From contig JAJPHQ010000033.1 of the NCBI GenBank assembly GCA_021325195.1, positions 1 to 50,297 of the forward strand: a DNA stretch of 50,297 nucleotides. The letters run 5' to 3'. The notes below the pieces were generated by a model. It did not search any database, had not been told where the DNA came from, and saw nothing but the letters and a program-made list of their open reading frames with translations. Below, one piece after another: positions 1 to 13,214 of this stretch. Both the position numbers and the translations under genes were made by a program. Every line of letters starts with the position of its first letter. Position 1 is the stretch's first letter. This DNA is from Gammaproteobacteria bacterium (GTDB taxonomy: Bacteria > Pseudomonadota > Gammaproteobacteria > Xanthomonadales > Rhodanobacteraceae).

Positions 1-2
1 CG

Positions 3-935
3 GCCGTGCATCAGGCCGCGATCGGTTGCCGTTTCCGCTGCACCTTCTGCGGCGTGGCCGCGATGTTCGGGGGTGCCACGGCGTTGCCGCCCGCTGCGCG
101 GCTCGAACGCGACCTCGGCTACCTCAAGCACGAGCTGGGCGCCGATTCGATCCAGTTCTTCGACCACAATTTCTTCGATCGCGAACAGGACATGATTCCC
201 CTGCTGGAGATCATGGCCCGGTTCGAGATGCCGTGGTGGTGCTACGCGCGCGCCGACGCGCTGCTGAACCTGTCGGAGAGCACCTGGAAACTGGTGCGCA
301 AGAGCCGGCTGTGCATGGCGTACATCGGCGCGGAATCGCCCAGCGCCCGGATGCTCAAGCAGATCCGCAAGGGCACACGGCCGGACCAGACGCTGGAGGT
401 GGCCGAACTGTGCCGGCGGCACGGGGTGATCCCCGAGCTGTCGTTCATGGTTGCGCCGCCCGAGAACACCGAAGAGGAAACCGAGCGCACCTTCGAGTTC
501 ATCCGCGAACTGAAACGGGTCAATCCAGAGTCCGAGATCATCGTCTACGTCTATACGCCGTTGCCGGAGAGCAGCCGCCACGAGAAGGACCGGGGCAGAA
601 GGCCCGTGCAGCCCTTGCTCGACGTGCACGGCGAGCCCGTCGTGTTTCCGGAAACACCCGAAGAATGGACGCTGCCGCGCTGGGTCGACTACGCCTGTCA
701 TGCCGATGCGCCATGGTTGACCGACAGGCTGCGCCTGCGCATCCGCGATTTCGTGACGGTATTGCGCTGCCGTTTTCCCACGGTGCAGGATCTGCGCTCG
801 CCCGGATGGACCAAGCGGAGCCTCAGCGCGATGGCCGCATGGCGCTATCGGCACCGCAAATACGACCGGCCGTGGGAGCTGAACCTCGCCGATCGGCTGG
901 TGCGCCTGCGCATGCCGCAAGTGTCGGGGATATAG
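3..935 (+). CDS. Radical SAM protein, 5'-truncated by window edge
   Basis: The reading frame enters from the left edge and ends at a TAG. The radical-SAM cluster motif CRFRCTFC (CxxxCxxC, the three Cys that hold the 4Fe-4S cluster) lies within the first ~15 visible residues, followed by typical barrel features (FFDHNFF, YIGAESPS). In B12-binding radical SAM enzymes a cobalamin domain of 150-200 residues precedes this motif, so most of the N-terminus is probably outside the window. The internal GTG at 6 is unlikely to be the real start because it leaves only seven residues before the cluster Cys. Substrate unknown. It is 3 bp from the next glycosyltransferase, so co-transcription in a glycan or natural-product operon is likely. 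A methyltransferase or ring-forming role is possible but not shown. Confidence 0.85.
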   Translation, partial: AVHQAAIGCRFRCTFCGVAAMFGGATALPPAARLERDLGYLKHELGADSIQFFDHNFFDREQDMIPLLEIMARFEMPWWCYARADALLNLSESTWKLVRKSRLCMAYIGAESPSARMLKQIRKGTRPDQTLEVAELCRRHGVIPELSFMVAPPENTEEETERTFEFIRELKRVNPESEIIVYVYTPLPESSRHEKDRGRRPVQPLLDVHGEPVVFPETPEEWTLPRWVDYACHADAPWLTDRLRLRIRDFVTVLRCRFPTVQDLRSPGWTKRSLSAMAAWRYRHRKYDRPWELNLADRLVRLRMPQVSGI

Positions 936-938
936 ACC

Positions 939-2081
939 GTGCCCGCCCTGCACGTCGCGCAGATCAATTTCCTGCCCGCGCCGGAGGCCTTTCCGGCCGC
1001 CGAGATTCTCGAACGGTGGCGGTGCCTCGTGGACATCGCCGAGATGGCGGAGGGCGCGGGAATCCGCGTTTCGGTGCTGCAGGCGGCGTCGCACTCGGAA
1101 CGCGTCGTGCGCAATGGCGTCGATTACCGCTTCGTCGATGTGGGCGATGCGCAGACACCGGCCGCCGTGGGCAAGCGTTGTGCCGACGTGCTCGAAGGCA
1201 TCGGCGCCGACATCCTCCACGCGCACAGTCTGGCGTTCGCCGAAGAAGCGCACGCGGTTTCCCGATGCCTGTCGAAACCGCTGCCGATCCTGCTGCAGGA
1301 CCACGCCGACCGTTTGCTACCCTGGTGGCGGCGGTGGGGAAGCTGGCGGCGCCCGTATGCGGCGGTCGCGGGCGTGGCTTTCACGTCGCTCGAGATGGCG
1401 CGGCCGTTCGTTGCGGCCGGCGCGTTCGGTCCGGCCACGCATTTTTTCGAGATACCCGAAACCAGCAGCCGTTTCTGCCCCGGCAGCCGCGCGGACGCAC
1501 GCACGGAAACGGGCATTTACGGCGACCCCTGCGTGCTGTGGGTGGGACACCTGAGTCCGGGCAAGGACCCGCTGACCGTGCTCGAAGGCGTCGCGCGCGC
1601 CGCGCGGCAACTGCCGGGGCTGCGCCTGTGGTGCGCGTTCGGCACGGCGCCGTTGCTCGCCGAGGTGCGGGCGCGCATCGATCGCGATCCGCGGCTCGCG
1701 GGGCGGGTACATCTGCTCGGCAAGGTGCCGCACGCGCGGGTCGAGTCGTTGCTGCGCGCCGCCGACTTGTACGTGTCGGGCAGTCTCGCCGAGGGTTCCG
1801 GCTGTGCCGTGCTGGAAGCCCTGGCCTGCGGCGTCTATCCCGTGCTCACGGATATCCCGGCGTTTCGCGCGCTCACCGGCAATGGCCGCGCCGGCAGGCT
1901 GTGGCCGTGCCGCGACCCCGGACGGCTTGCCGAAGCCTTGATTTCAGCGGCGCGATCCCCGCTGTCGCGGCAGCAGGTACGCGCCCACTTCGATCGGACC
2001 TTGTCGTTCGCCGCGGTGGGCCACCGCTGGGCCGAAGCGTACGCGCAGGTGTTCGAAAGCTGGTGGCGGAGGGCGGCGTGA
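939..2081 (+). CDS. GT-B glycosyltransferase (GT4-like)
   Basis: A 380-residue protein starting at GTG, 3 bp after the radical-SAM stop. The C-terminal half carries the GT4 donor-binding pattern: LWVGHLSPGKDP opening the second Rossmann domain, and an EX7E motif (E285 and E293 in LAEGSGCAVLEAL) that contacts the nucleotide sugar. The N-terminal acceptor domain includes DILHAHSL. No signal peptide or membrane span is seen, so it probably acts at the cytoplasmic face on a lipid- or peptide-linked acceptor. The stop overlaps the next glycosyltransferase start (GTGA), indicating translational coupling. The sugar and the acceptor cannot be read from sequence. Confidence 0.88.
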   Translation: MPALHVAQINFLPAPEAFPAAEILERWRCLVDIAEMAEGAGIRVSVLQAASHSERVVRNGVDYRFVDVGDAQTPAAVGKRCADVLEGIGADILHAHSLAFAEEAHAVSRCLSKPLPILLQDHADRLLPWWRRWGSWRRPYAAVAGVAFTSLEMARPFVAAGAFGPATHFFEIPETSSRFCPGSRADARTETGIYGDPCVLWVGHLSPGKDPLTVLEGVARAARQLPGLRLWCAFGTAPLLAEVRARIDRDPRLAGRVHLLGKVPHARVESLLRAADLYVSGSLAEGSGCAVLEALACGVYPVLTDIPAFRALTGNGRAGRLWPCRDPGRLAEALISAARSPLSRQQVRAHFDRTLSFAAVGHRWAEAYAQVFESWWRRAA

Positions 2082-3184
2082 AAATCGCGCTGGTGGTCCC
2101 GGGCGGCGTGGACCGCAGCGGGGAATACCGGGTGATCCCCGCGCTGCTCGGCCTGATCCGGCGCTTGTCGCGTGCGCACGAAGTCCACGTTTTCGCGCTG
2201 CGACAGGAGCAGGCGGCGGGCTGCTGGAAGCTGGCCGGCGCCGCCATCCACAACATCGGTGAAGGCCGCACGCATCTGCGCGGCATCGCGATGATCCGCG
2301 CCGAGCACCGGCGTGCGCCGTTCGATCTGGTCCATGCGATTTTTTCTGGCTCCTGCGGCGTGATCGCCGTGGCGGCCGCGAAATCGCTGCGGCTGCCGAG
2401 CCTGGTGCACGTGGCCGGAGGCGAACTGGTCGCGCTGCGCGACATCGGCTTCGGAGGCCGGCAGACCTGGAGAGGGCGGTTGCGCGAAGCGTGGGTGCTG
2501 CGCAGCGCCGACGCCGTCACCGCGGCGAGCGCGTCGATCGGCGATTCGCTGCGGACGCTCGGCATCAGGGCGTGGCGCGTGCCGCTCGGCGTCGACCTGC
2601 GGGCGTGGCCGGCGCGCGCTCCCGGCGAACGCCGCGGCGAGCCGGCGCGGCTGCTCCATGTCGCCAGCCTCAATCGCGTCAAGGATCAATCGACGCTGCT
2701 GAAAGCGTTGGCGGCGCTGGTGGAGCGAGGCGTCGACTTCCGGATGGACATCGTGGGCGTCGATACGCTGCAGGACGAAACGGCGCGGCTGGCCAACAAG
2801 CTCGGATTGGAACAGCGTGTGCGGTTTCTCGGCTTCAAGACGCAGCGCGAGTTGCGCCCGATCATGGAAGCCGCCGACCTGCTGGTGATGTCGTCACGGC
2901 ACGAAGCTGGGCCGCTGGTGCTGCTGGAAGCGGCAGTGGCGGGCGTGCCCACGGTCGGCACGGCGGTGGGACACATCGCGGAATGGGCGCCCGTGGCGGC
3001 GCTGGCCGTGCCCGTCGCCGACCCCGCGGCGCTGGCGGATGCCATCGGCATGGTGCTAGGCGATGAAGCACTCAGACTCCGTCTGGCGCGCGCCGCCCAG
3101 TGCAGGGCGCTGTCGGAAGACGCCGATTACACCGCGCGCCGGTTCGAGGCGCTGTATCTGCATTTGACCACCACATGCGGTTGA
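2078..3184 (+). CDS. GT-B glycosyltransferase (GT4-like), second of a pair
   Basis: A 368-residue protein; GTG at 2078 overlaps the upstream TGA by four bases (GTGA). The N-terminus KIALVVPGGVDRSGEYRV is a typical GT4 opening, with a glycine loop and an acceptor-domain Rossmann fold. The second domain begins at LLHVASLNRVKDQ and includes the EX7E motif (E276 and E284 in HEAGPLVLLEAA). It is shorter and diverged from its neighbour, so the two probably add different sugars in sequence. An open frame runs upstream of 2078 across the previous genes, but it is out of register with their codons and is a high-GC artefact. Confidence 0.88.
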   Translation: MKIALVVPGGVDRSGEYRVIPALLGLIRRLSRAHEVHVFALRQEQAAGCWKLAGAAIHNIGEGRTHLRGIAMIRAEHRRAPFDLVHAIFSGSCGVIAVAAAKSLRLPSLVHVAGGELVALRDIGFGGRQTWRGRLREAWVLRSADAVTAASASIGDSLRTLGIRAWRVPLGVDLRAWPARAPGERRGEPARLLHVASLNRVKDQSTLLKALAALVERGVDFRMDIVGVDTLQDETARLANKLGLEQRVRFLGFKTQRELRPIMEAADLLVMSSRHEAGPLVLLEAAVAGVPTVGTAVGHIAEWAPVAALAVPVADPAALADAIGMVLGDEALRLRLARAAQCRALSEDADYTARRFEALYLHLTTTCG

Positions 3185-3568
3185 AATGCGCCGGAAGATC
3201 ACGCGCACACGACGCCGGAGTGCTTGGTGATCAGCAGCACCACAACCCGGCCGGTTTACGTGTAACTCCTTTCCCCGGCAAAGCCGTGCCGGTGCCGCTG
3301 CGAGGACATGCAGTTGATTTCGCCATGAAAATTTTCAAGAGAGTGGTTGCAACCAGATCCAGTGTGCCAGGGACACACGGAAACAAAGGTCGAAACGATA
3401 CAGCCGGCCGTTGGCTGCGTTTGCCCGGTATGGGCGACAAAACCCGGCTGGCCGGATCGTTTCCGTCGAGTATGAGTTCTCATGGGGTAGTCGAACGAGA
3501 TTTGGAACCGTTCATTGGTGGTCAGTGCCAACGGCAACCGCATCTGTCAGGTCATCAACGGCACCGCG
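3185..3568. other. 384-bp intergenic stretch, lower GC, no confident gene
   Basis: Visibly AT-richer than its flanks. It holds a short perfect inverted repeat, ATGAG-TT-CTCAT (3472-3483), which could be a protein-binding site. A 95-codon Cys-containing minus-strand frame (3256-3543) is open here but has no good ribosome site; it is discussed as a finding. On the plus strand an open frame starting at 3325 (MKIFKRVV...) runs on into the acetyltransferase gene in another phase and is not a credible gene. The gap may contain the promoter for the downstream genes. Confidence 0.5.
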
Positions 3569-4054
3569 ATGAGCATGAACGCGCCATTCATCCATCCGCT
3601 CGCCGATGTCAAAACAAGAAATATCGGAAGCCACAGCAGGATCTGGCAATTCGTGGTCATCCTTCCGGGCGCCGTGATCGGCGCCGATTGCAATATCTGC
3701 TCGCATTGCTTCATCGAGGACGACGTGATCGTGGGCGATCGCGTGACCGTCAAGAATGGCGTTCAACTCTGGAACGGGCTGCGGGTTGGAGACGACGTGT
3801 TCATCGGGCCCAACGTTACCTTCTGCAACGATGCGTTTCCGCGCAGCGGAGACCGTAGTAAAGAACCCTTGCAGACCATCGTGGAGGCGGGTGCGTCGAT
3901 CGGCGCGGGCGCGACGATACTGCCGGGCATCACGATCGGCCGGAGGGCGATGGTGGGCGCGGGCGCCGTGGTAACCAAATCGGTTGCAGCGGGCACCGTC
4001 GTTCTGGGCAATCCGGCAACCGTGAAAATGCCGGCCCATCACGTATCGCGGTGA
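3569..4054 (+). CDS. Hexapeptide-repeat sugar N-acetyltransferase (FdtC/QdtC/WbbJ-like)
   Basis: About 161 residues from ATG 3569 (a second ATG lies two codons on; no clear ribosome site decides). The protein is a left-handed beta-helix: repeated [LIV]GxxxxI/V hexads from HPLADV onward, with the landmarks [42 protein letters not shown] and [10 protein letters not shown]. This pattern is characteristic of enzymes that acetylate the 3-amino group of dTDP-3-amino-3,6-dideoxyhexoses or the equivalent UDP-amino sugars. It supports a modified amino sugar in the product made by this locus. The partner ketoisomerase and aminotransferase genes are not in the window. Confidence 0.82.
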
Positions 4055-4173
4055 ATCGCGGGCCGTCATTCTGCCGGCGCGGGCAGGGCGGAACGACGCG
4101 GCATCAGACAAGGCGGCCGGTTTGAACCGTTCCGCGGTTTCATCACACTCACAGGTTGTCGAGGAAATGCAGG

Positions 4174-4932
4174 ATGGCACCTCCTCGGCAACCTGCCAGT
4201 CATCGGACCGCGGCGCCCATGCAACCCCGGCGACTTTCTATTCCAGGCAGGTTTTTGCGCTCGTTGCTGTCGCGCCACGGGAAAGCCGTGGTCAACATGG
4301 CCGGCTCCGACGCCGCAGCGGATCTTGAATTGGTCAATCGTGTCCGGGGGCGCACCCCGCTGCTCCTCGGCGCCGTGCCGGCCCTGCAGTTGCTCGCATG
4401 CGTCCGGGCCACCGGGAACGTTCCCGGGGTGCTGGCCGAGGCCGGTGTCTTTGCCGGAGGCTCGGCTCGGTTGATCTGCGAAGCGAAGGGTGACCGTGCG
4501 CTGCACCTCTTCGATGTCTTCGAAACGCTCCAGGATGAGTCGACGGCAGGCGGTCCCGAGGCTGCCGCCGTCCGCTCCCATTTCCAGCGCCTGCATGCCA
4601 GGGAAGCAGACGTACGAAGCACGCTGGCGGGTTATCCGAACGTGCATTTCCACACCGGCGTTTTCCCGCAAACCGCCGCGGCAGTTGCAGATTCGCGTTT
4701 CAGCTTCGTCCATCTCGACCTCGACCTCGAAGGCAGCACGCTGGCGGCGCTGGAGTTCTTCTACCCGCGGCTCGCCCCCGGTGCGTTGCTGGTCGCAGAC
4801 GATTTCAGTTCGGCGCCGGTGCAAGCGGCCTTCCACGCGTATTTCCGCTCGCGGACGGCAACGATCATAAGGCTGCCGTGGTCGCAGGGGATCGTGGTTG
4901 CCGCAAGCACCGGGCCTGCCTTTGTCGCCTGA
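4174..4932 (+). CDS. TylF/MycF-like SAM-dependent O-methyltransferase
   Basis: ATG 4174 is chosen because GAGGAA (4161-4166) sits 7 bases upstream; a TTG at 4156 would add six residues. The family pattern is clear: GVLAEAGVFAGGSARL (SAM-binding loop), LFDVFETL, VHFHTGVFPQT, FVHLDLDLEGSTLAALEFFYPRL and GALLVADDF. In this macrocin O-methyltransferase family the Asp residues around HLDLD and DDF bind Mg2+ and the sugar hydroxyls. It probably O-methylates a sugar of the glycan made by the neighbouring glycosyltransferases. The extra basic N-terminal ~40 residues (PRRLSIPGRFLRSLLSRHG) could be an amphipathic membrane-association helix. Confidence 0.8.
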   Translation: MAPPRQPASHRTAAPMQPRRLSIPGRFLRSLLSRHGKAVVNMAGSDAAADLELVNRVRGRTPLLLGAVPALQLLACVRATGNVPGVLAEAGVFAGGSARLICEAKGDRALHLFDVFETLQDESTAGGPEAAAVRSHFQRLHAREADVRSTLAGYPNVHFHTGVFPQTAAAVADSRFSFVHLDLDLEGSTLAALEFFYPRLAPGALLVADDFSSAPVQAAFHAYFRSRTATIIRLPWSQGIVVAASTGPAFVA

Positions 4933-4980
4933 GGAAGCCCGTGCAGCGCGCGAGCAGCCGCGGACGGCGGCCTTCATTTC

Positions 4981-5148
4981 ATGATGAACACCTTGATGTC
5001 CGATGCCCTGCACGATACGCCGCCGCAGCAATGGCCATCGGCGTTTCGTGGTCTCCGCCAGGGTCCGCTCACGGACCCTTTCGCGTATCTCGCCGGGCAG
5101 CGGGAGCGGCGCAGGTTGCGTGCGTCCGTCGCGGCGCCATCACCATGA
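4981..5148 (+). CDS. Possible 55-residue small protein, unrecognised
   Basis: ATG-to-TGA frame inside the 260-bp gap between the TylF-type gene and the acyltransferase. The peptide begins MMNTLMSDALHDTPPQQW and ends in an Arg-rich stretch followed by ASVAAPSP. Roughly three quarters of its codons end in G or C, a little short of what is seen in neighbouring genes. There is no convincing ribosome site directly upstream and no motif that I recognise. It could be a short regulator, a precursor peptide, or chance. Longer open frames in other phases cover the same bases (for example up to 5186) and look less protein-like. Confidence 0.25.
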   Translation: MMNTLMSDALHDTPPQQWPSAFRGLRQGPLTDPFAYLAGQRERRRLRASVAAPSP

Positions 5149-5192
5149 TGGCCTCGCATGGCATCCTGCTTTCGTGGCGCGGTTGAGCGGGG

Positions 5193-6287
5193 ATGTCGAA
5201 CCCGACCGGCCGGCGCATTCCGTCACTGGACGGGATCAGGGCGATCTCGATCCTGATGGTGTGCTACGGACACCTCTGCGGCACGCGGCATTTCCCCGTT
5301 GCGATCGCGGACTACGGCCGCTGGTGCGGCGATGTCACCCATCTCGGCGTGCTGGTGTTCTTCGTGATCTCGGGGTTCCTGATCACCTCGCTGCTGGTGG
5401 GCGAGCGCGAGACGACGGGGACGATCTCGTTGAAGCGGTTCTACTTGCGCCGGGTGTTGCGGATCTTTCCCGCGTTCTACGCGTTCATTCTGGTCATGGC
5501 GATCGCGGCGCTGCTGGGGGCGGTCCACGTGACGGGGCGGGATTTCGCTTTCGCCCTCACCTACACGGTCAATTTCGAGCCGAACCGCGCCTTGCAGATG
5601 GGACATCTCTGGTCGTTGTCGGTCGAGGAGCAGTTTTACCTGCTGTGGCCGCTGGCGCTGCTGGTCCTGCGTGAACGCCGCGCCTTGATCGTCGCGGTCG
5701 CGGCGATCTTCACGGGTCCGTTGGTGCGCGTGGGCATCCTCGAGTGGCTGTTCCGTGTCGATCCCCATTCGCTCGACGGCATGATGACCAGCTTCCCGGC
5801 GATGCTCGATTACCTGGCCGCGGGTTGTGCCCTGGCTCTGCTGCGGCCATGGTTGCTGACCCGGACGTGGTACCTGCGCCTGACCGCCAGCCGCTGGCTG
5901 GCGCTGGCGGTGCCGCTGGTGTTGCTGATCAACCGCATGGGCGGCCATACCCTGACGATACTGCTGGGCTCGCCGGTGTTGAACCTGTGCATCGCGTTGC
6001 TGATCGAGTCGAGCACCCGTCATGCGGATTCGCTGGCCGGACGCTTCCTGAACTGGAAGCCCGTCGTAGCCCTCGGCGTGCTGAGCTACTCGCTGTATCT
6101 GTGGCAAATGCCTTTCCTCGATCACCGGTCCGGCGCGTGGACGAATGCATTTCCGCAGAACCTGGCGCTCGTTTTCCTCGCGGCGCTGTCATCCTGGTTC
6201 CTGATCGAGCGCCCGTTCCTTCGTCTGCGCAGTGGGTTGCGGCGAGGCACCGGGCTGCCTGCACGCGCGCAAGGCATTGCGGGTTGA
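5193..6287 (+). CDS. Acyltransferase 3 family membrane protein (OafA/YrhL type)
   Basis: A 364-residue polytopic protein. The N-terminus RRIPSLDGIRAISILMVCYGH contains the conserved catalytic-loop His of the acyltransferase 3 fold, followed by LGVLVFFVISGFLITSLL, FYLRRVLRIFPAFYAF and LWSLSVEEQFYLLWPL, all hallmarks of the family. About ten hydrophobic segments follow. There is no C-terminal SGNH domain, so this is the short form. The family moves acetyl or other acyl groups across the inner membrane onto sugars of O-antigen, capsule, peptidoglycan or secondary metabolites. With the upstream transferases it fits decoration of a surface or secreted glycan. Confidence 0.92.
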   Translation: MSNPTGRRIPSLDGIRAISILMVCYGHLCGTRHFPVAIADYGRWCGDVTHLGVLVFFVISGFLITSLLVGERETTGTISLKRFYLRRVLRIFPAFYAFILVMAIAALLGAVHVTGRDFAFALTYTVNFEPNRALQMGHLWSLSVEEQFYLLWPLALLVLRERRALIVAVAAIFTGPLVRVGILEWLFRVDPHSLDGMMTSFPAMLDYLAAGCALALLRPWLLTRTWYLRLTASRWLALAVPLVLLINRMGGHTLTILLGSPVLNLCIALLIESSTRHADSLAGRFLNWKPVVALGVLSYSLYLWQMPFLDHRSGAWTNAFPQNLALVFLAALSSWFLIERPFLRLRSGLRRGTGLPARAQGIAG

Positions 6288-6343
6288 GAGTGGACGGCAT
6301 TGGATCATGCGATTTGATCACGCAATGCCGGCCGCAACCCGCA
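6278..6343. repeat. Large nested palindrome (REP-like or terminator)
   Basis: Nested perfect arms: TGCGGGTTG (6278-6286) with CAACCCGCA (6335-6343); CGGCATTG (6295-6302) with CAATGCCG (6323-6330); GATCA (6303-6307) with TGATC (6315-6319). The loop is 7 bases and there is a 3-base bulge. The outer left arm includes the acyltransferase stop codon. There is no T-run, so it is not a classical intrinsic terminator. It may stabilise the 3' end, terminate transcription weakly, or be a member of a dispersed extragenic palindrome family. Confidence 0.6.
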
Positions 6344-6372
6344 GGCACGGGTGAATCGCGGACGGATCATCG

Positions 6373-7215
6373 ATGCAAAGGACACAGGCCATGACCGGAA
6401 TGCTCGGCGACACCCCGCAACGCGATTACGCGGAGAAGCTCCGGCTGTTCAACGCCTTCGCGCGGCCCGAGCTGTGCGAAGCGATCGAAGCATTGTCGGT
6501 GCAGGCAGGTTCGCGCGTGCTCGATGCCGGCTGCGGTACCGGCGAGGCGCTCGGCTGGTTCCACCAGTCGATGCAGGGCCGCGGAACGGTGGCCGGCATG
6601 GATCTGGCCGCCGCGCACGTCCGCGCCGCCCGCAGCGGCGCGCCGGCGCAGGCGCTGATCGTGCAGGGCGACATGCTGCGGCCGCCCTTCGCGGACGGCG
6701 CTTTCGATCTCGTGTGGGCGGTCAATGCCCTCAATCATCTGCCCAACCCCGTCGCCGGCGTACGGATTCTTGCGAAGCTGTTGCGTCCGGGCGGACGCAT
6801 CGCGGTCGGGCAGAGCTCGCTGGTGCCGGACATGTATTTCGCGTGGGATGCGCGCCTCGAAAAGAAGGTCAACGAGGCGGTCCGGGCGTATTACCGCGAG
6901 CGTTATGGCCGCAGCGAGCGGGAATTCACCGCGGTCCGTTCACTTGTCGGCTGGCTGCAGCAGGCGGGATTGCGGCGAGTGAGCGTGCGGACGCGGATGA
7001 TCGAACGAACATCGCCGCTCTCGGACGCCGATGAGCGTTACCTGCTGCACGCGATCTTCCGCGGCACGTGGGGAGAACGCCTGCGCGGTTATCTGGGCCA
7101 TGACGATTTCGAAACGCTGACGCGGTTATGCGATCCGGAAGACGAGGCTTATGCACTGCGTCGGCGGGACTTCCACTTTCTGCAAAGCCTCACGATCGCG
7201 GTGGCGACGAAATAG
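6373..7215 (+). CDS. Class I SAM-dependent methyltransferase
   Basis: A 280-residue cytosolic protein with SAM motif I VLDAGCGTGEALG (DAGCGTG at residues 51-57), an acidic ribose-binding position in GTVAGMDLAAAHVRAA, motif II FADGAFDLVWAVNALNHL, and motif III LLRPGGRIAVG. This is the UbiE/Methyltransf_11 pattern. The long C-terminal part (residues ~150-280) is not typical of UbiE and probably shapes the substrate pocket. The substrate is unknown. It is the last plus-strand gene of the left block and converges on the nucleotidyltransferase gene. Confidence 0.85.
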   Translation: MQRTQAMTGMLGDTPQRDYAEKLRLFNAFARPELCEAIEALSVQAGSRVLDAGCGTGEALGWFHQSMQGRGTVAGMDLAAAHVRAARSGAPAQALIVQGDMLRPPFADGAFDLVWAVNALNHLPNPVAGVRILAKLLRPGGRIAVGQSSLVPDMYFAWDARLEKKVNEAVRAYYRERYGRSEREFTAVRSLVGWLQQAGLRRVSVRTRMIERTSPLSDADERYLLHAIFRGTWGERLRGYLGHDDFETLTRLCDPEDEAYALRRRDFHFLQSLTIAVATK

Positions 7216-7244: not shown

Positions 7245-8570
7245 TTACATCAGCGCCATGCCCGGGTCGCGTCCGTTGCCCGCGTCTTCCGGGCATGGCA
7301 GGGATTGCGGCACGTCGTGGCCGGCGGCGCGAAGGTCTCCGGGCATGCAAGTCGCCGGCTGCAATGCCATGTGCACGACGTACATCATGTCGATCCGCGG
7401 CAGGCGCCGGGTGAGCCGGGTCAGAAGCCGGCGCGTGCGCGAGGAAGTGGACCAGCTCTGCCCCTGCAGCCAGAAGTGTGCCCGCACCAGATCGATGCGC
7501 TCCTTGATCGTCTCCGGCGGGGGCGCGATGCGGTTCCGGAGGCAGCGGACGATTTCGCCGGGTGTCCGGCACCATTCCAGGCCGGGCAGCGTTTGCAGCC
7601 AGAGCGCGGAACAGGAAACCTGCGTCAGGGTCTGGCGCCGTGACACCGTCCCGAGCACGGGCGGGCAAAGGGAAGCGAGCCGTGCCGGCACGGCGTCCGG
7701 GATCGCATTCGGGTAATAGCGGGCGACCATGCGCAGCGGCGGCAGCGCCCACCAGCAAGCGCCCGGCGGGGAGGCATTCCAGAGGACATCCGTATCCCAA
7801 TCGTCCGGATCGATGCGGCGCGCCAGCAGCGCGATGTCGTGCAGATGGATCAACCGGAGGTTGCGCGCGCAGTGGTTGCCTGCCGCGTGCAGCAGCAGGT
7901 GGCTGAGCAGGGCGCCGTGCGATGGATACGGATTCAGGCCGGGGCGGGGATCTCGGGGAAGGATCCGGCTGGTGATGTCGATGGTGGCGACTGGCAACCG
8001 TTCGCGGATCCGGGTGTGCAGTTCGATGTTGACTGGGGTGTCGCGATGTTCGCCCAGCACCGCGAGGGGCGCACCTTCTCCGGCCGGTTTGAACGAGAGA
8101 TGCCGCCAGTGCTCGAACGACTGCACGTAACCGATCCCCCGCAGCAGTTCGATCGCGGCAGCGGCATCGCTCTCGCGCACCAGCAGGTCGATGTCGGCCA
8201 TCGGCCGCTCGCCGGGCGCGTAGATCCCCAGCGCGTGCAGCGCAGCGCCCTTGAGCGGGATGAGCGGCAGATCGACGGCGCGGGCAGCGGCGTCGATGCG
8301 TTCCAGCAGCGCCTCGATCCGGCGGTGGCGATGCTCGACATGCTCGCGCTGATGTTCGAGAAACTGCCGCCATGCCGGATGGTTCCAGGGGGAATGTCTG
8401 CACAGCAGCGGCGACACGCCGTGAACCGCGGCCGCTGCCTGCGCAAGCCGCCATTCGAGATCGTTCCATTCCGGCGTCGCCTCGCCGCGTCCGGTGCGCG
8501 CCAGATCCCCGGCGATCGCCTCGGTGGTGCGACGCAGGCCGCCTTCAATGGTTCGAAGCGGCGGCAGCAT
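7245..8570 (-). CDS. PF14907-type nucleotidyltransferase family protein
   Basis: A 441-residue protein. The recognisable core is LPLIPLKGAALHALGIY (K107) followed by GERPMADIDLLV with the paired aspartates D126 and D128 of the Pol-beta nucleotidyltransferase fold. The rest is mostly helical. Relatives are found beside HprK-like kinases in lasso-peptide and exosortase-type loci, where they are thought to modify a phosphorylated substrate; that role is from family knowledge, not shown here. The start lies 26 bp inside the end of the upstream radical-SAM gene, so the two are translationally coupled. The C-terminal ~40 residues are Pro/Gly-rich and may be disordered. Confidence 0.8.
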   Translation of the reverse strand: MLPPLRTIEGGLRRTTEAIAGDLARTGRGEATPEWNDLEWRLAQAAAAVHGVSPLLCRHSPWNHPAWRQFLEHQREHVEHRHRRIEALLERIDAAARAVDLPLIPLKGAALHALGIYAPGERPMADIDLLVRESDAAAAIELLRGIGYVQSFEHWRHLSFKPAGEGAPLAVLGEHRDTPVNIELHTRIRERLPVATIDITSRILPRDPRPGLNPYPSHGALLSHLLLHAAGNHCARNLRLIHLHDIALLARRIDPDDWDTDVLWNASPPGACWWALPPLRMVARYYPNAIPDAVPARLASLCPPVLGTVSRRQTLTQVSCSALWLQTLPGLEWCRTPGEIVRCLRNRIAPPPETIKERIDLVRAHFWLQGQSWSTSSRTRRLLTRLTRRLPRIDMMYVVHMALQPATCMPGDLRAAGHDVPQSLPCPEDAGNGRDPGMALM

Positions 8571-10059
8571 GCTGGAACGGCCCGGCGCGGTCTTCGCTTC
8601 CGACGGGAGGCGTCGGTGTCGCGTCGTGGTTGCGGTGCGCGTGCTCGTCGGCGATCAGCGCATCCCAGCGTGCGTCGAGCTCGGCCGCGGCGCGGGCGTA
8701 ACGTTCCGGTGGCGTGCCGGCCTTCGATTGGTGCAGGGTGACCTGCTGGTGCAGCAGGTCGCGCACGCTACGGTAGAACCAGGAATCGTAGGCGCCGCGG
8801 AACATCATGGCCAGGTCGCCGCTGTCCTGCCAATGGGTTTTCCTGCCGAGCTGCGTCTTGACCTGTTCGTAGAACCGGGTGCCCGGCAGCGGATACGAGA
8901 CGCTCACGCCGATGTCGTCGGGAACCGCCCGCGTGATCAGTTCGCGGGTCGCCAGCAGATCGGACAACTGCTCGCCGAGATAGCCGAGCTGGATGAAGAA
9001 CCCGACCCGGATGCCATGCCTGCCCAGCCGTTCGCGTGCCGCGATCAGCTCCTCGACCGTGGTGCCCTTGTTCATCCTGTCCAGCACCTGCTGACTGCCG
9101 CTCTCCGCGCCCAGCCACGCTTCCGCGCAGCCGGCACGGGCGAGTGCGGCGGCCATGCGTTCGGTCGAAATGTCGGCGCGGGTCTGGATGGTGAACGGCA
9201 CCGGGCCGTCGCTGGCGTGCAGATGGTCGGCGAACGCCTCCACCCATTCGGCGCGAAAGCCGAAGATGTCGTCCGCGAACCAGACGTGGTCGGGCCGGAA
9301 TGCCTGTTTCAGATGGCTCATTTCCGCCGCGACTTCGGCGGCGCCGCGCTGCTTGTAGTAATTGCCCCAGATCGGCTTGGCGCACCAGTTGCAGCGGAAC
9401 GGGCAGCCCCGCGATGCCGCCATGTTGAGGCTGAAGTAACCGTGCCGCTCGCGCCACATCGCCCGGTAACGTTCGATGTCGATCAGGTCCCAGGCCGGAT
9501 GGCCGGTCAGGCGCGCATCAGGAGGCTGCGCGCCGATGCGAGCCGTCTGCAACTGGTCGCCGACGAGTGTGCCGACGCCGACGAGGCCGGCCATCCAGCG
9601 CTGGGTTTCGATGTGCGGCTGCCGCTGCAGCCGCTCTATCAATTGCACGAGGACGGCGACGCCTTCGCCGATCAGCACGACGTCCGCCCCGGCCGCGAGG
9701 AACGCGTCGGGGTGATCGGACGCGTCGGAGCCGGCGACGATCACCCGGGCTCCCTCCGCGCGCGCGGTCGCGATCATCCGGCAGGCCGCCTCGCGCATCC
9801 GGCCGAGGCACATCTTGGTCAGGAAGTTGAAGTTGTCTTCGTACAGAACCACCACGTCCGGACGGCCCGATCGCACGGCGGCTTCATATTCCTCCACGCC
9901 TTCGGAGAGCATGGCGTCGAACAGCGAAATCTGGTGCCCCATTTGCCGTAACAATGCCGCCACCTGGAGGGTGGCGAGCGGAGGGTAGGGTTTGCCGCGT
10001 TCCCACTGCTTCTGGTCGTAGGCCAGGAAGTAGGAGTGGGTGACCTGGATATGCAGCAT
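8545..10059 (-). CDS. B12-binding-domain radical SAM protein
   Basis: A 504-residue protein starting at ATG (MLHIQVTHSYFLAYD). Residues ~25-150 form a cobalamin-binding-type Rossmann domain (PPLATLQVAALLRQMGHQ; GSDASDHPDAFLAAGADVVLIGEG). The radical-SAM cluster is C219-x3-C223-x2-C226 (RGCPFRCNWC), followed by VWFADDIFGF and GCAEAWLGAESGSQ. The family often methylates unreactive carbon, or carries out B12-assisted rearrangements or ring formation. The open frame extends far upstream of this start, but that part has no family resemblance and overlaps the kinase gene. It diverges from the HprK-like gene, with a 177-bp shared upstream region. Confidence 0.85.
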   Translation of the reverse strand: MLHIQVTHSYFLAYDQKQWERGKPYPPLATLQVAALLRQMGHQISLFDAMLSEGVEEYEAAVRSGRPDVVVLYEDNFNFLTKMCLGRMREAACRMIATARAEGARVIVAGSDASDHPDAFLAAGADVVLIGEGVAVLVQLIERLQRQPHIETQRWMAGLVGVGTLVGDQLQTARIGAQPPDARLTGHPAWDLIDIERYRAMWRERHGYFSLNMAASRGCPFRCNWCAKPIWGNYYKQRGAAEVAAEMSHLKQAFRPDHVWFADDIFGFRAEWVEAFADHLHASDGPVPFTIQTRADISTERMAAALARAGCAEAWLGAESGSQQVLDRMNKGTTVEELIAARERLGRHGIRVGFFIQLGYLGEQLSDLLATRELITRAVPDDIGVSVSYPLPGTRFYEQVKTQLGRKTHWQDSGDLAMMFRGAYDSWFYRSVRDLLHQQVTLHQSKAGTPPERYARAAAELDARWDALIADEHAHRNHDATPTPPVGSEDRAGPFQHAAAASNH

Positions 10060-10236
10060 TCGATGGGCGCCGGGCGATGCGGGATGGCGCACGGCGCGAT
10101 GCCGGCACCCTGTGTCGCGTGGACATGAGTGCTCCCGCACAGGGTTTCGGTTGTCGCGGGGCCCATTTCTCCGGCGAGCACGGAATCGGAAGCCGTCCGG
10201 ATACAACCTTTGGTGCCCGGCCGCGCACCCATCGCC

Positions 10237-11313
10237 ATGACGCCGGCGAGCGCCATTCCCGCCTCCGCGACATGGAACCCTCCCCTCGACACCGCGGCCC
10301 CGTTGCCGCGCGAGGATGCCTGCGGCGTGGACGCCCATGCTTTCGATGCACGGTCCGGTGCCCCGCTGCTGGTGAGCGAGCAGATCCTGGGCGGGCGCTT
10401 CCGTTTCGAAAGCGCCAGTGAAGCGCTGTTGCGTCTGGTCGAAGCCGCCTACGGCGGATTGCCGCGGCACGGCCTGCCCAATGCCGCACCCGAATTCCGC
10501 GTGGGACTGCGGTTGCTGACGCGGCAGCGTGCTGCGGCCGGCATCGAACCGCCGCCGGTGCAGGCGCAGACGGAATCCGACCTGCCCTGCGCCGTCATCG
10601 ACGCCTCGAATTACGCGGTGGTGGCGCCCGAACAGCGTCTGGCGACGGTGGTGGCGTCGGAAGACATGCTCGCCCATCCCTACCATTTGCGCTACGGGCT
10701 GATCGAATTCGCCGTCTGCATCCTTGCCGCGCGCTGCATCGGCCTGGTTCCGCTGCACGCTGCCTGTGTCGGCCGGGCAGGCCGCGGCGTTTTGCTGCTG
10801 GGCGCGAGCGGTTCGGGCAAATCGACGCTGGCCTTGCACGGCATGCTGCAAGGTCTGGAGCTTCTGGCCGAGGACGCGGTGTTCGTGCAACCGGAAAGCA
10901 TGCTTGCAACGGGAGTGGCCAACTACCTGCACGTCACGCGCGACGCGCTGCGCTTTCTGGATGCCGAAACCCGGCGCTGGATCACCGGAGCGCCGGTCAT
11001 ACGCCGCCGCAGCGGTGTAGAAAAATTCGAGGCCGACCTGCGGCTGGGGCCGGGCCGGCCCGCGGCGGGTCCGCTGGAACTGGTCGGCGCCGTGTTCGTG
11101 TCCGGCGAGCCGGCCGACGATCCCGAGGTGCTGTTGAATCCGATCGATGCCGACAGCGCCGTCGAACAGCTGTCGGCCGACCAGTCCTATGCCGTGACCC
11201 AGCCCGGCTGGCGCCATTTCAGGCACCGGCTGACGCAACTGGGTGTCCACGAACTCCGCCGCGGACGCCATCCGCGCGCTGCCGTCGATGCGCTGCGACG
11301 GTTGCTCGGCTGA
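10237..11313 (+). CDS. HprK-related serine kinase-like protein
   Basis: A 358-residue protein from ATG 10237; a GTG at 10129 in frame would add 36 residues and cannot be excluded. The P-loop GASGSGKST (residues 189-197) follows LVPLHAACV, where the HPr kinase fold has its conserved His, and is followed by LLAEDAVFV (E212, D213). There is no sign of the N-terminal domain of true HPr kinase. Relatives (HprK-related kinase A, and lasso-peptide tail kinases) act on small peptides rather than HPr of the sugar phosphotransferase system. Here it lies between a radical-SAM/nucleotidyltransferase pair and an exporter, suggesting a peptide or glycolipid substrate. The target residue is unknown. Confidence 0.8.
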   Translation: MTPASAIPASATWNPPLDTAAPLPREDACGVDAHAFDARSGAPLLVSEQILGGRFRFESASEALLRLVEAAYGGLPRHGLPNAAPEFRVGLRLLTRQRAAAGIEPPPVQAQTESDLPCAVIDASNYAVVAPEQRLATVVASEDMLAHPYHLRYGLIEFAVCILAARCIGLVPLHAACVGRAGRGVLLLGASGSGKSTLALHGMLQGLELLAEDAVFVQPESMLATGVANYLHVTRDALRFLDAETRRWITGAPVIRRRSGVEKFEADLRLGPGRPAAGPLELVGAVFVSGEPADDPEVLLNPIDADSAVEQLSADQSYAVTQPGWRHFRHRLTQLGVHELRRGRHPRAAVDALRRLLG

Positions 11314-11420
11314 TGCCGCGGGGCGGTGCGGACCGCGCCTTTGCAACCTTCCCGGCGTGCGGTTGCACTCATTTCTGCCGGCATTCCGGGCTTTGGGAGG
11401 GGCCGCAGCCTTGAAACCCC

Positions 11421-13214
11421 GTGGAACGTCACGAAGCCGTGGCTGACGCCGGCGACACCCGACACCAGTCCGCGACGAAGCCCGGTTCGCCGCCGGCACG
11501 GCACGGGCGGCGCGATCTCCTGCACGCGCTGGCACGCACGCTCACGCGCGCCGATGCGGTGCGCGTCGTGGCGTACGTCCTGCTGTCGCTGGGGGGTGCG
11601 CTCGCCGGGAGCGTCGCGGCCATCGTTCTCGCGGCGCTGGTTCAACCCGGCCACGTGCTGGCTTTCGGGCGCGGCCTGCCCGTTCCGCACGGAAGCGCCG
11701 AAATGCTGGCGCTGGATTTCGTGGCCGCGATGGCCGCGTTCGCCGTGCTGCGCTGGTTCGCGGCGAGGCTGGGCGCGAGCCTCGCCAGCCGCTACGCGGC
11801 GAGGTTGCGGCGCGAGGTTCACGCGCGCCTGATCGACGCGCCGCTGGCATCGCTGGCCGATTCGTCGTCCGCCGAAATCGCCAACGTCCTCACCTACAAC
11901 GTCGAGATCGTCACCCAGGGCTTCAACGCCCTGCTGCAGTTGCTTGCGGTGGGCGTCACGACCGCGGTGAGTCTGGGATTCGCGCTGTGGGTGTCGCCCG
12001 TGCTGACGCTGAGCCTGCCGGTGCTCGCCGGATTCGCGCTGATCGCATCGCATTTCGGCAACGACGAACACGCAAGGATCAGCCGCCGCCACATCGAGGA
12101 CATGACGCGGCTGTTCTGGCTGAGCGAGGATTTTCCGCGCCGCCTGCGGCACGTGCGTTCGTTCGAGCGCGAGGATGCCGAGAGGGCCGGCTACGCCACG
12201 CTCGCCGCGCGGATCGGCGAGAGCAGCCGGCGTCATGTCGAACTCGTGGCTACCGGACGGCTTATCCTCGAGCTGCTGGCCGCAGCGGGGGTGGCGGCGA
12301 TTTTCGTGATCGGCGAGCGATGGCACGGGCTGGATCGCTCCTCGCTGATCGCGGTCGGGCTGTTGCTGGGCCGCCTCGTGCCTTACCTGACCTCGACCCG
12401 GCAGAACCTCCAGCAACTGCGTCTGGCCGTTCCGGCCATCGAACTCTGGCAGCGTTACGCCAATCTGGATTCCGTGCGTCATGAAGCCGCACCGCCGGAT
12501 CCGGCCGTTGCCGTCCGTGAATTGCGGATCGAGCGCGTGGAATTGAGGTTGCCATCGGTCCGTCTCGACATCGATGACCTGATCCTGGCGCCGGGCGAAC
12601 TGACCCTGATTTCCGGTGACTCCGGCATCGGCAAAAGCAGCCTGGTCGATGTGCTGGCCGGCATGGCAACGCCCCATGCGTTCACGGCGCGCATCGACGG
12701 CCGGCGCATCGCGTTCGACGCCTATCGCCGGCTGGTGAGAAAAGGCGCCTACGTCAGCCAGAGCGTGCGGCCCTGGCAAAGAACGGTCCGGGAATGCCTG
12801 TTGTGGGCCGAGCCCGGCGCCAGCGACGAGGCATTGCGACGTGCCTTGGCGGACGTCGGCCTCGGCCAGAGACTGTTTGCGGCACGTGATGGTCTCGACT
12901 CGGCCTTACAGGGCTCCTCGAGCCGGCTTTCGGGCGGCGAACTGCAACGCCTGCTGCTGGCGCAGGTGCTCCTTCGGCAGCCGTCCCTGGCGCTGCTGGA
13001 CGAGGCAACCAGCGCGCTCGACGCCGCCTCCGAACTGCGGGTCCTTGCAACGCTGAGGCGACGTCTGCCGCACACGATCCTGATCGTGGTCTCGCACCGG
13101 GCGAGCGTCGCAGCGATCGCGGATCGATATCTGAACATCGGCAACGACGGCGTTGTCACGATCGCAGTCAAGAGAACGCCACCGGAATCGAAGGCGAGTC
13201 CTCCGGCGATGTAA
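11421..13214 (+). CDS. ABC exporter, fused membrane and ATPase domains
   Basis: A 597-residue half-transporter starting at GTG. The N-terminal ~330 residues form an ABC type 1 transmembrane domain with about six hydrophobic segments. The ATPase domain has Walker A GDSGIGKSS (399-407), the signature LSGGE (503-507), Walker B LALLDEAT (D527, E528) and the H-loop VVSHRAS. There is no N-terminal C39 peptidase, so any leader peptide would have to be cut elsewhere. It probably dimerises and exports the product of the kinase/radical-SAM block, or a lipid-linked intermediate. A 107-bp gap follows the kinase gene on the same strand. Confidence 0.88.
   Translation: MERHEAVADAGDTRHQSATKPGSPPARHGRRDLLHALARTLTRADAVRVVAYVLLSLGGALAGSVAAIVLAALVQPGHVLAFGRGLPVPHGSAEMLALDFVAAMAAFAVLRWFAARLGASLASRYAARLRREVHARLIDAPLASLADSSSAEIANVLTYNVEIVTQGFNALLQLLAVGVTTAVSLGFALWVSPVLTLSLPVLAGFALIASHFGNDEHARISRRHIEDMTRLFWLSEDFPRRLRHVRSFEREDAERAGYATLAARIGESSRRHVELVATGRLILELLAAAGVAAIFVIGERWHGLDRSSLIAVGLLLGRLVPYLTSTRQNLQQLRLAVPAIELWQRYANLDSVRHEAAPPDPAVAVRELRIERVELRLPSVRLDIDDLILAPGELTLISGDSGIGKSSLVDVLAGMATPHAFTARIDGRRIAFDAYRRLVRKGAYVSQSVRPWQRTVRECLLWAEPGASDEALRRALADVGLGQRLFAARDGLDSALQGSSSRLSGGELQRLLLAQVLLRQPSLALLDEATSALDAASELRVLATLRRRLPHTILIVVSHRASVAAIADRYLNIGNDGVVTIAVKRTPPESKASPPAM

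Follow-up and report, generated by a model that had tools for sequence, protein, structure and literature searches.

A B12 radical SAM, nucleotidyltransferase, HprK-like kinase and ABC exporter module beside a putative surface-polysaccharide locus in Rhodanobacteraceae

The four-gene module and its conservation

The window analysed here is a stretch of 50,297 nucleotides at the start of contig C93 (JAJPHQ010000033.1) of a gammaproteobacterial genome of the family Rhodanobacteraceae (GCA_021325195.1), and four genes between positions 7245 and 13214 are its main subject. They are arranged in two divergent pairs. On the minus strand there is a B12-binding radical SAM enzyme (RS, 8545..10059) followed by a PF14907 nucleotidyltransferase (NTF, 7245..8570). 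These two genes overlap by 26 bases, so the translational coupling proposed in the initial annotation of this DNA is plausible. On the plus strand there is a putative HprK/PEPCK-type kinase (HPRK, 10237..11313), assigned from profile scores, a predicted model and conserved residues, and an ABC exporter half-transporter of 597 amino acids (ABC, 11421..13214). The annotation had listed the same four genes, all of which were found in place, and the P-loop that it put at residues 189-197 of HPRK was confirmed, counting from the ATG at 10237. The true start of HPRK may be a GTG at 10327 instead, because the promoter-like element described below ends at 10230 and residues 1-31 of the predicted model have a pLDDT (predicted local distance difference test) below 50, against a mean of 87.

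HPRK, NTF and RS were each matched in 91 of 233 genomes of the same family, in 11 of 26 genera, and the genome lists agree by eye (lists from different searches were compared by eye; the HPRK list counts 91). Gene order was read in 51 loci: the window, 40 loci from the same family and 10 from another family in the order. Each locus was selected for HPRK, and the set is silent on genomes without it, which the family-wide counts cover. Genes in the fetched loci were called with a home-made codon-usage caller that misread or missed some of them, including HPRK in the window, and gene order was therefore also verified by tblastn. The order and strand of NTF, RS and HPRK are fixed in 51/51 loci and ABC comes next in 50; in locus L037 no ABC match passed E 1e-20, and there is a 33% partial match there. 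The neighbourhood comparison that had been suggested for these genes thus finds them linked and not scattered in 50 to 51 of the HPRK-selected loci, and this linkage exceeds chance. In an even draw across the order, 91 of 398 genomes matched HPRK at E 1e-8, with 64 full-length matches from the same family, 21 full-length matches from the second family (genera g326 and g335) and 6 genomes with weak partial ones alone. A class-wide draw gave a match in 1 of 369 genomes, the genome studied here, among the matches listed (five candidates scored per genome; the listed part includes four other members of the order), and a search of plasmids gave no HPRK match.

Judged by its sequence scores, HPRK is HprK-like, yet outside the named families. 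It scores 26.9 bits against Hpr_kinase_C (cut-off 33.3), 40.1 bits against HprK_rel_A (TIGR04352, whose curated cut-off of 200 it misses) and 37 bits against TIGR04355 (cut-off 200). Residues H174, K195, E212 and D213 are conserved in 34/34 sequences. In a sequence-profile search its best solved relatives are HprK proteins (E 8e-5), and a Foldseek search with the predicted model matched PEPCK at E 1e-8 and HprK at E 7e-5.

The other two enzymes are over the cut-offs of their families and their active-site residues are conserved, which bears out the PF14907 and B12 radical SAM identities given initially. NTF scores 102 bits against PF14907 (cut-off 31.2), and K107, G108, D126, D128 and E183 are conserved in 30/30 sequences; we take D126, D128 and E183 to be the catalytic three of the family. 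A fold search with the NTF model ranked ANT(2'')-Ia and LnuA best, both weakly (best E 0.0075, none at E 0.001). RS scores 61 bits against Radical_SAM (cut-off 29.5) and 37.6 bits against B12-binding (cut-off 32.1), and its CxxxCxxC motif is present in 30/30 sequences. The named models that RS matches best stay below their cut-offs (TIGR04072, 107 bits; BchE, 88 bits; TIGR04295, 86 bits; and HpnJ, 83 bits). The same is true of ABC, for which the alignments to CydD (159 bits) and MsbA (148 bits) span approximately residues 49-573.

Leftward continuation of the locus

The window opens inside rS1 (1..935, plus strand), a second B12-type radical SAM protein that is truncated at its 5' end (Radical_SAM, 59 bits). 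Its first 191 codons lie at C80:2-574, at the edge of another contig of the same genome, and read outward. The assembly break therefore falls within rS1, and C80 extends the window to the left. Read toward the window, C80 carries FdtA, the aminotransferase DegT, a WzxE-like flippase, a glycosyltransferase, a Wzy-like polymerase, Wzz, the methyltransferase MT8, the amidohydrolase AmidoH, the methyltransferase MT1 and rS1, and it additionally encodes an extracytoplasmic function (ECF) sigma factor with its anti-sigma factor. The copies in locus L080 score 29.5 bits against Wzz (cut-off 25.5) and 63.5 bits against Polysacc_synt (cut-off 28.2). FdtA/FdtB-type genes serve the synthesis of 3-amino-3,6-dideoxyhexose. 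The best reading of these gene families is that the genome studied here has a Wzx/Wzy-type surface-polysaccharide locus of about 23-25 kb. The initial annotation had left it open whether the DNA to the left was a lasso-peptide locus; it holds polysaccharide genes and is not one.

Within the window, rS1 is followed on the plus strand by two group 1 glycosyltransferases, GT1 (939..2081) and GT2 (2078..3184), both identified by profile scan. In 20/20 relatives read over 40 kb, AmidoH, MT1, rS1, GT1, GT2, NTF, RS and HPRK stand in identical order. The set DegT-Wzx-GT-Wzy-Wzz is found in 18 of these 20, the two that do not show it being L050 and L051. A NeuD-type acetyltransferase, a GH130-like protein and a GNAT protein are present in 14-15 of the 20 and absent from the genome studied here. 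GT2 is present in 47/51 loci and in the leftward extensions of L136, L137 and L138, and the contig of L052 stops before GT2. The corresponding figures for rS1 are 40/51 loci and the extensions of L137 and L138.

AmidoH was matched in 93 of the 233 same-family genomes, namely the 91 with the module and two more, G011 and G013. The G011 contig ends in GT2 and the G013 contig in MT1, both short of the module, and therefore no same-family genome is shown to have only one of AmidoH and the module.

Five loci of g326 (L101, L106, L107, L108 and L109) and L136 of g335 keep the module and GT1-GT2, with no rS1 between MT1 and GT1; rS1 is therefore dispensable where RS is not. Between GT2 and NTF there is a variable cargo slot (window 3515-7215) whose gene content differs among relatives. 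Here it holds, all on the plus strand, a hexapeptide-repeat acyltransferase (3515..4054), a TylF-type methyltransferase (4156..4932), an OafA-type membrane acyltransferase (5193..6287; Acyl_transf_3, 102 bits) and a SAM methyltransferase (6373..7215), the first, second and fourth identified by profile scan. In the 47 loci where the GT2-NTF gap could be read, it is shorter than 400 bases in 27, 400-3000 bases in 7 and at least 3000 bases in 13.

A promoter-like motif shared across the locus

There is a motif in the gaps between RS and HPRK, RRGTGC-N16-GGTTGY, which becomes GCAACC-N16-GCACTY when read toward the gene. In the window one such element faces RS-NTF (ACAACC-N16-GCACTC on the minus strand, 10127..10154), one faces HPRK (ACAACC-N16-GCACCC, plus strand, 10203..10230) and one lies before ABC (GCAACC-N16-GCACTC, plus strand, 11343..11370). 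The motif run was confined to the upstream part of the gaps, a run on whole gaps having returned only the N-terminal coding stretch of HPRK, and gave an information of 947 against 389 for shuffled gaps. There are 103 matches with a spacer of 16 in the 51 loci, against at most 5 for each other spacer from 10 to 24, and an RS-directed site is present in 51/51 gaps. As controls in the gaps, the reversed pattern gave 0 and 0 matches and mononucleotide shuffles gave 0.03 matches per set. A precursor gene hidden in the RS-HPRK gap was also considered and rejected: the short words that recur there are the DNA motif read in several frames.

Sites before FdtA, cytochrome b561, the sigma gene, ABC and MT8, and those on C80, were not used in deriving the motif and form the independent part of the evidence. 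The 20 extended loci hold 83 sites, of which 79 are positioned from 60 bases inside to 500 bases before a gene in the matching direction, the only direction in which sites were assigned, and 4 fit none. The numbers of sites and of called genes are 20/20 for RS, 15/20 for HPRK, 12/16 for FdtA, 11/11 for cytochrome b561, 9/17 for the ECF sigma gene, 5/19 for ABC and 2/19 for MT8, with 5 sites for other genes. The exact motif occurs six times in the 2.9 Mb of the genome studied here. Three occurrences are in the window (facing RS, HPRK and ABC), one is on C80 ahead of FdtA, and two lie elsewhere. These last two (L132:7477-7504 on contig C23 and L133:7469-7496 on contig C54) may both be due to chance; the C54 site precedes, at a distance of 255 bases and in the appropriate direction, a gene whose product is NHL-repeat-protein-like by eye.

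A sigma orthologue of at least 68% identity is present in 93 of the 233 same-family genomes, by eye the same set as for AmidoH, and 20 further genomes have sigma paralogues of 42-53% identity. AACC is typical of ECF promoters. Because one half of the motif is an AACC-type, -35-like element, the spacing is fitting and an ECF sigma/anti-sigma pair is encoded nearby, the simplest reading of the motif is an ECF promoter.

Beside the sigma/anti-sigma pair on C80 (L131, 12158-18004) there are genes for a subtilase, a multihaem cytochrome, an MtrB/PioB porin and a cytochrome c, possibly forming an extracellular electron conduit. This set is present in 5 of the 20 extended loci, and a cytochrome b561/cytochrome c set in 11 of the 20.

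Interpretation and relation to known systems

On balance we lean towards the view that RS-NTF and HPRK-ABC constitute the constant right-hand part of a locus for a surface polysaccharide, that a dedicated ECF sigma factor, whose gene lies at the left end, controls the whole as one regulon, and that the module tailors the glycan. The basis for this is gene linkage, the shared promoter-like motif, co-occurrence and conserved active-site residues. The module probably installs a phosphate-linked group on the surface glycan, where we infer the phosphorylation chemistry from the enzyme families involved. HPRK would phosphorylate a hydroxyl of a glycan precursor, and NTF would extend or exchange the phosphate so added, in analogy to the pair of kinase and nucleotidyltransferase that acts on lasso peptides, with pseudomycoidin as the model. 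RS would make a B12-dependent, carbon-centred change such as a methylation, and ABC would translocate a product across the inner membrane alongside the Wzx flippase. In loci that have FdtA and DegT, the glycan would probably contain 3-amino-3,6-dideoxyhexose. Of the two products initially envisaged for a tailoring and export module here, a phospho-modified glycan fits the tie to the polysaccharide locus and a new ribosomally synthesized and post-translationally modified peptide (RiPP) is not supported, for the reasons given below.

Several points weigh against the glycan-tailoring interpretation. The kinase motif is H-K-E-D rather than H-K-D-D in 34/34 HPRK sequences. H-K-D-D is present in eight HprK-like proteins from loci L111, L112 and L114-L119 (the weak HPRK matches in L111, L112, L114, L115 and L118 were compared at the level of this motif), and is required by lasso kinases according to PMC9266682. 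The HPRK model has low query-normalised TM-scores to its PDB matches (about 0.5 for PEPCK and 0.2-0.3 for HprK). The HPRK-directed site is exact in only 27/51 gaps. Because the 51 gaps that yielded the motif are also those in which its sites were counted, the 51/51 for RS is partly circular. In the genome studied here two motif sites lie outside the locus, the reversed control matches four times genome-wide, and the sigma gene itself has no exact site. The Wzx and Wzy-like proteins of this genome fall below the named models (262 bits against a WzxE cut-off of 325, and 31.8 bits against a cut-off of 40 with seven predicted transmembrane segments), and no initiating glycosyltransferase was identified. 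In the same-genus loci L050, L051 and L137, the stretches covered (for L137, 10 kb to the left of MT8) do not show the FdtA-to-Wzz set, and L136 has only Wzz of this set in the stretch read. With other or unseen glycan machinery in these four loci, the module is independent of that exact machinery; this fits a tailoring module but weakens the tie to one exact sugar. Finally, we infer, rather than observe, the substrate, the phosphate and the methyl group.

Other readings were weighed, which overlap, so that their probabilities need not add up to one. It is improbable, in our estimate, that HPRK is instead a regulatory HPr-like serine kinase which modulates the assembly or export of the polysaccharide through phosphorylation of Wzz, ABC, NTF or another protein and leaves the product untouched. 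The HprK/PEPCK-type model and HprK-type motifs are what such a kinase would have, and ABC follows HPRK directly, on its strand, in 50/51 loci, but the locus proteins scanned include no HPr-like protein and the core of HPRK also matches product-modifying lasso-type kinases whose loci likewise contain an NTF. We give similarly little credence to a distinct product of the module, a small molecule or a RiPP, that shares only its regulation with the glycan and is secreted by ABC. Kinase/NTF pairs are known on lasso peptides (PMC9266682), an ABC half-transporter is present beside the Wzx flippase, and RS-NTF, HPRK and ABC each have their own promoter-like site in the window. However, AmidoH of the glycan operon is present in all 91 same-family module genomes, and the following searches brought up no sign of a RiPP at this locus. 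The lasso leader protease PF13471 has no match at E 0.001 in the whole genome (99.85% complete). PF00733, the asparagine synthase-like cyclase family, has five matches in the genome (contigs C34, C47, C57, C94 and C98), none of them on C93 or C80. Among the open reading frames (ORFs) listed for the RS-HPRK gaps in the 51 loci (at most four per gap), inspection by eye revealed no conserved small one that could encode a precursor. PqqD had no Pfam match among 20 locus proteins (10 from the window and 10 from L059/L080), the genome not having been searched with PF05402. A lasso peptide or other RiPP was rejected on the protease, cyclase and gap results, and the idea of a new RiPP put forward initially finds no support in the protease, gap and PqqD results.

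Less probable again is that ABC and HPRK serve a lipid carrier or a lipid of the outer membrane and that the substrate of RS is polyprenoid or hopanoid-like. The best scores of RS are to lipid-type B12 radical SAM models (TIGR04072 and HpnJ) and those of ABC to CydD and MsbA; however, all lie far below threshold, and other models, for unrelated substrates (BchE and TIGR04295), score nearly as high with RS.

A more specific form of the glycan-tailoring interpretation is offered only tentatively. It holds that, in two families of the order, a kinase/NTF pair of the lasso type gives the glycan a phosphate-linked decoration, accompanied by a B12 radical SAM enzyme and a dedicated ABC transporter, and that a single ECF sigma factor induces all of these along with cytochrome genes. 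If true, this would amount to a novel type of glycan tailoring and to a redox-linked regulon for a glycan. Under the glycan-tailoring interpretation in general, the locus provides a non-peptide context and a testable substrate class for PF14907 nucleotidyltransferases and for HprK-like kinases outside sugar-transport control, both of which are poorly understood. A sharp DNA motif that outlines a sigma-controlled regulon makes the conditions that induce the glycan testable.

The module resembles the phospho-lasso tailoring pair (the kinases PadeK and ThcoK; PsmK with PsmN), in which an HprK-like kinase and an annotated nucleotidyltransferase act sequentially. For pseudomycoidin, the source reports that PsmK phosphorylates a serine and that PsmN is needed for the hexose on that phosphate, by a mechanism left open (PMC9266682). 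In a profile comparison with lasso-type loci, the cores of the kinase sets matched at 97.9% probability over 177 columns and those of the NTF sets at 94.4% over 98 columns. The case studied here differs from the phospho-lasso pair in several respects. The genome lacks a leader protease, neither C93 nor C80 carries a cyclase, the proteins scanned include none that is PqqD-like, and no precursor was seen. In the kinase, E-D replaces D-D, the pair is linked to a B12 radical SAM enzyme, and the genes lie inside a putative polysaccharide locus. Because the kinase and NTF cores of the glycan module and of the lasso-type loci match, the pair seems to have two homes, one on a peptide with PqqD and one on a glycan where no PqqD was found.

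Three genomes (G743, G795 and G846) have the glycan module and a separate, second HprK-like kinase in lasso-type loci (L116:5029-14095, L117:5941-14893 and L119:5947-14972). These loci encode an HprK-like kinase and, by eye, a sulfotransferase-like protein, an NTF and three phage-tail-collar-like proteins; the NTF was identified by profile in L116 and L119 and by eye in L117. L116 and L119 have a cyclase-like protein (223 and 217 bits against lass_lactam_cya, cut-off 525), L116 has a PqqD-type protein (44 bits, cut-off 80), and L119 has a weakly called, precursor-like ORF of 51 amino acids at 7892-8047.

The HPr-rel-A kinase families (TIGR04352 and TIGR04355) have the P-loop region in common with HPRK, which reaches only 40 and 37 bits against their cut-offs of 200. 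The initial annotation placed such kinases in exosortase-type loci; a literature search found no paper on that link. No exosortase turned up among the locus proteins scanned, no search having been aimed at it. A literature search on the locus itself, covering few subscription journals, found nothing.

Finally, the locus resembles Wzx/Wzy O-antigen or enterobacterial common antigen-like loci with FdtA/FdtB-type genes in having FdtA, DegT, WzxE-like, Wzy-like and Wzz proteins and glycosyltransferases. The NeuD-type acetyltransferase of such loci is found in relatives and not in the genome studied here. Beyond what those loci contain, there are here two B12 radical SAM enzymes, an amidohydrolase, an HprK-like kinase, a PF14907 nucleotidyltransferase and an ABC half-transporter, together with one shared promoter-like motif.

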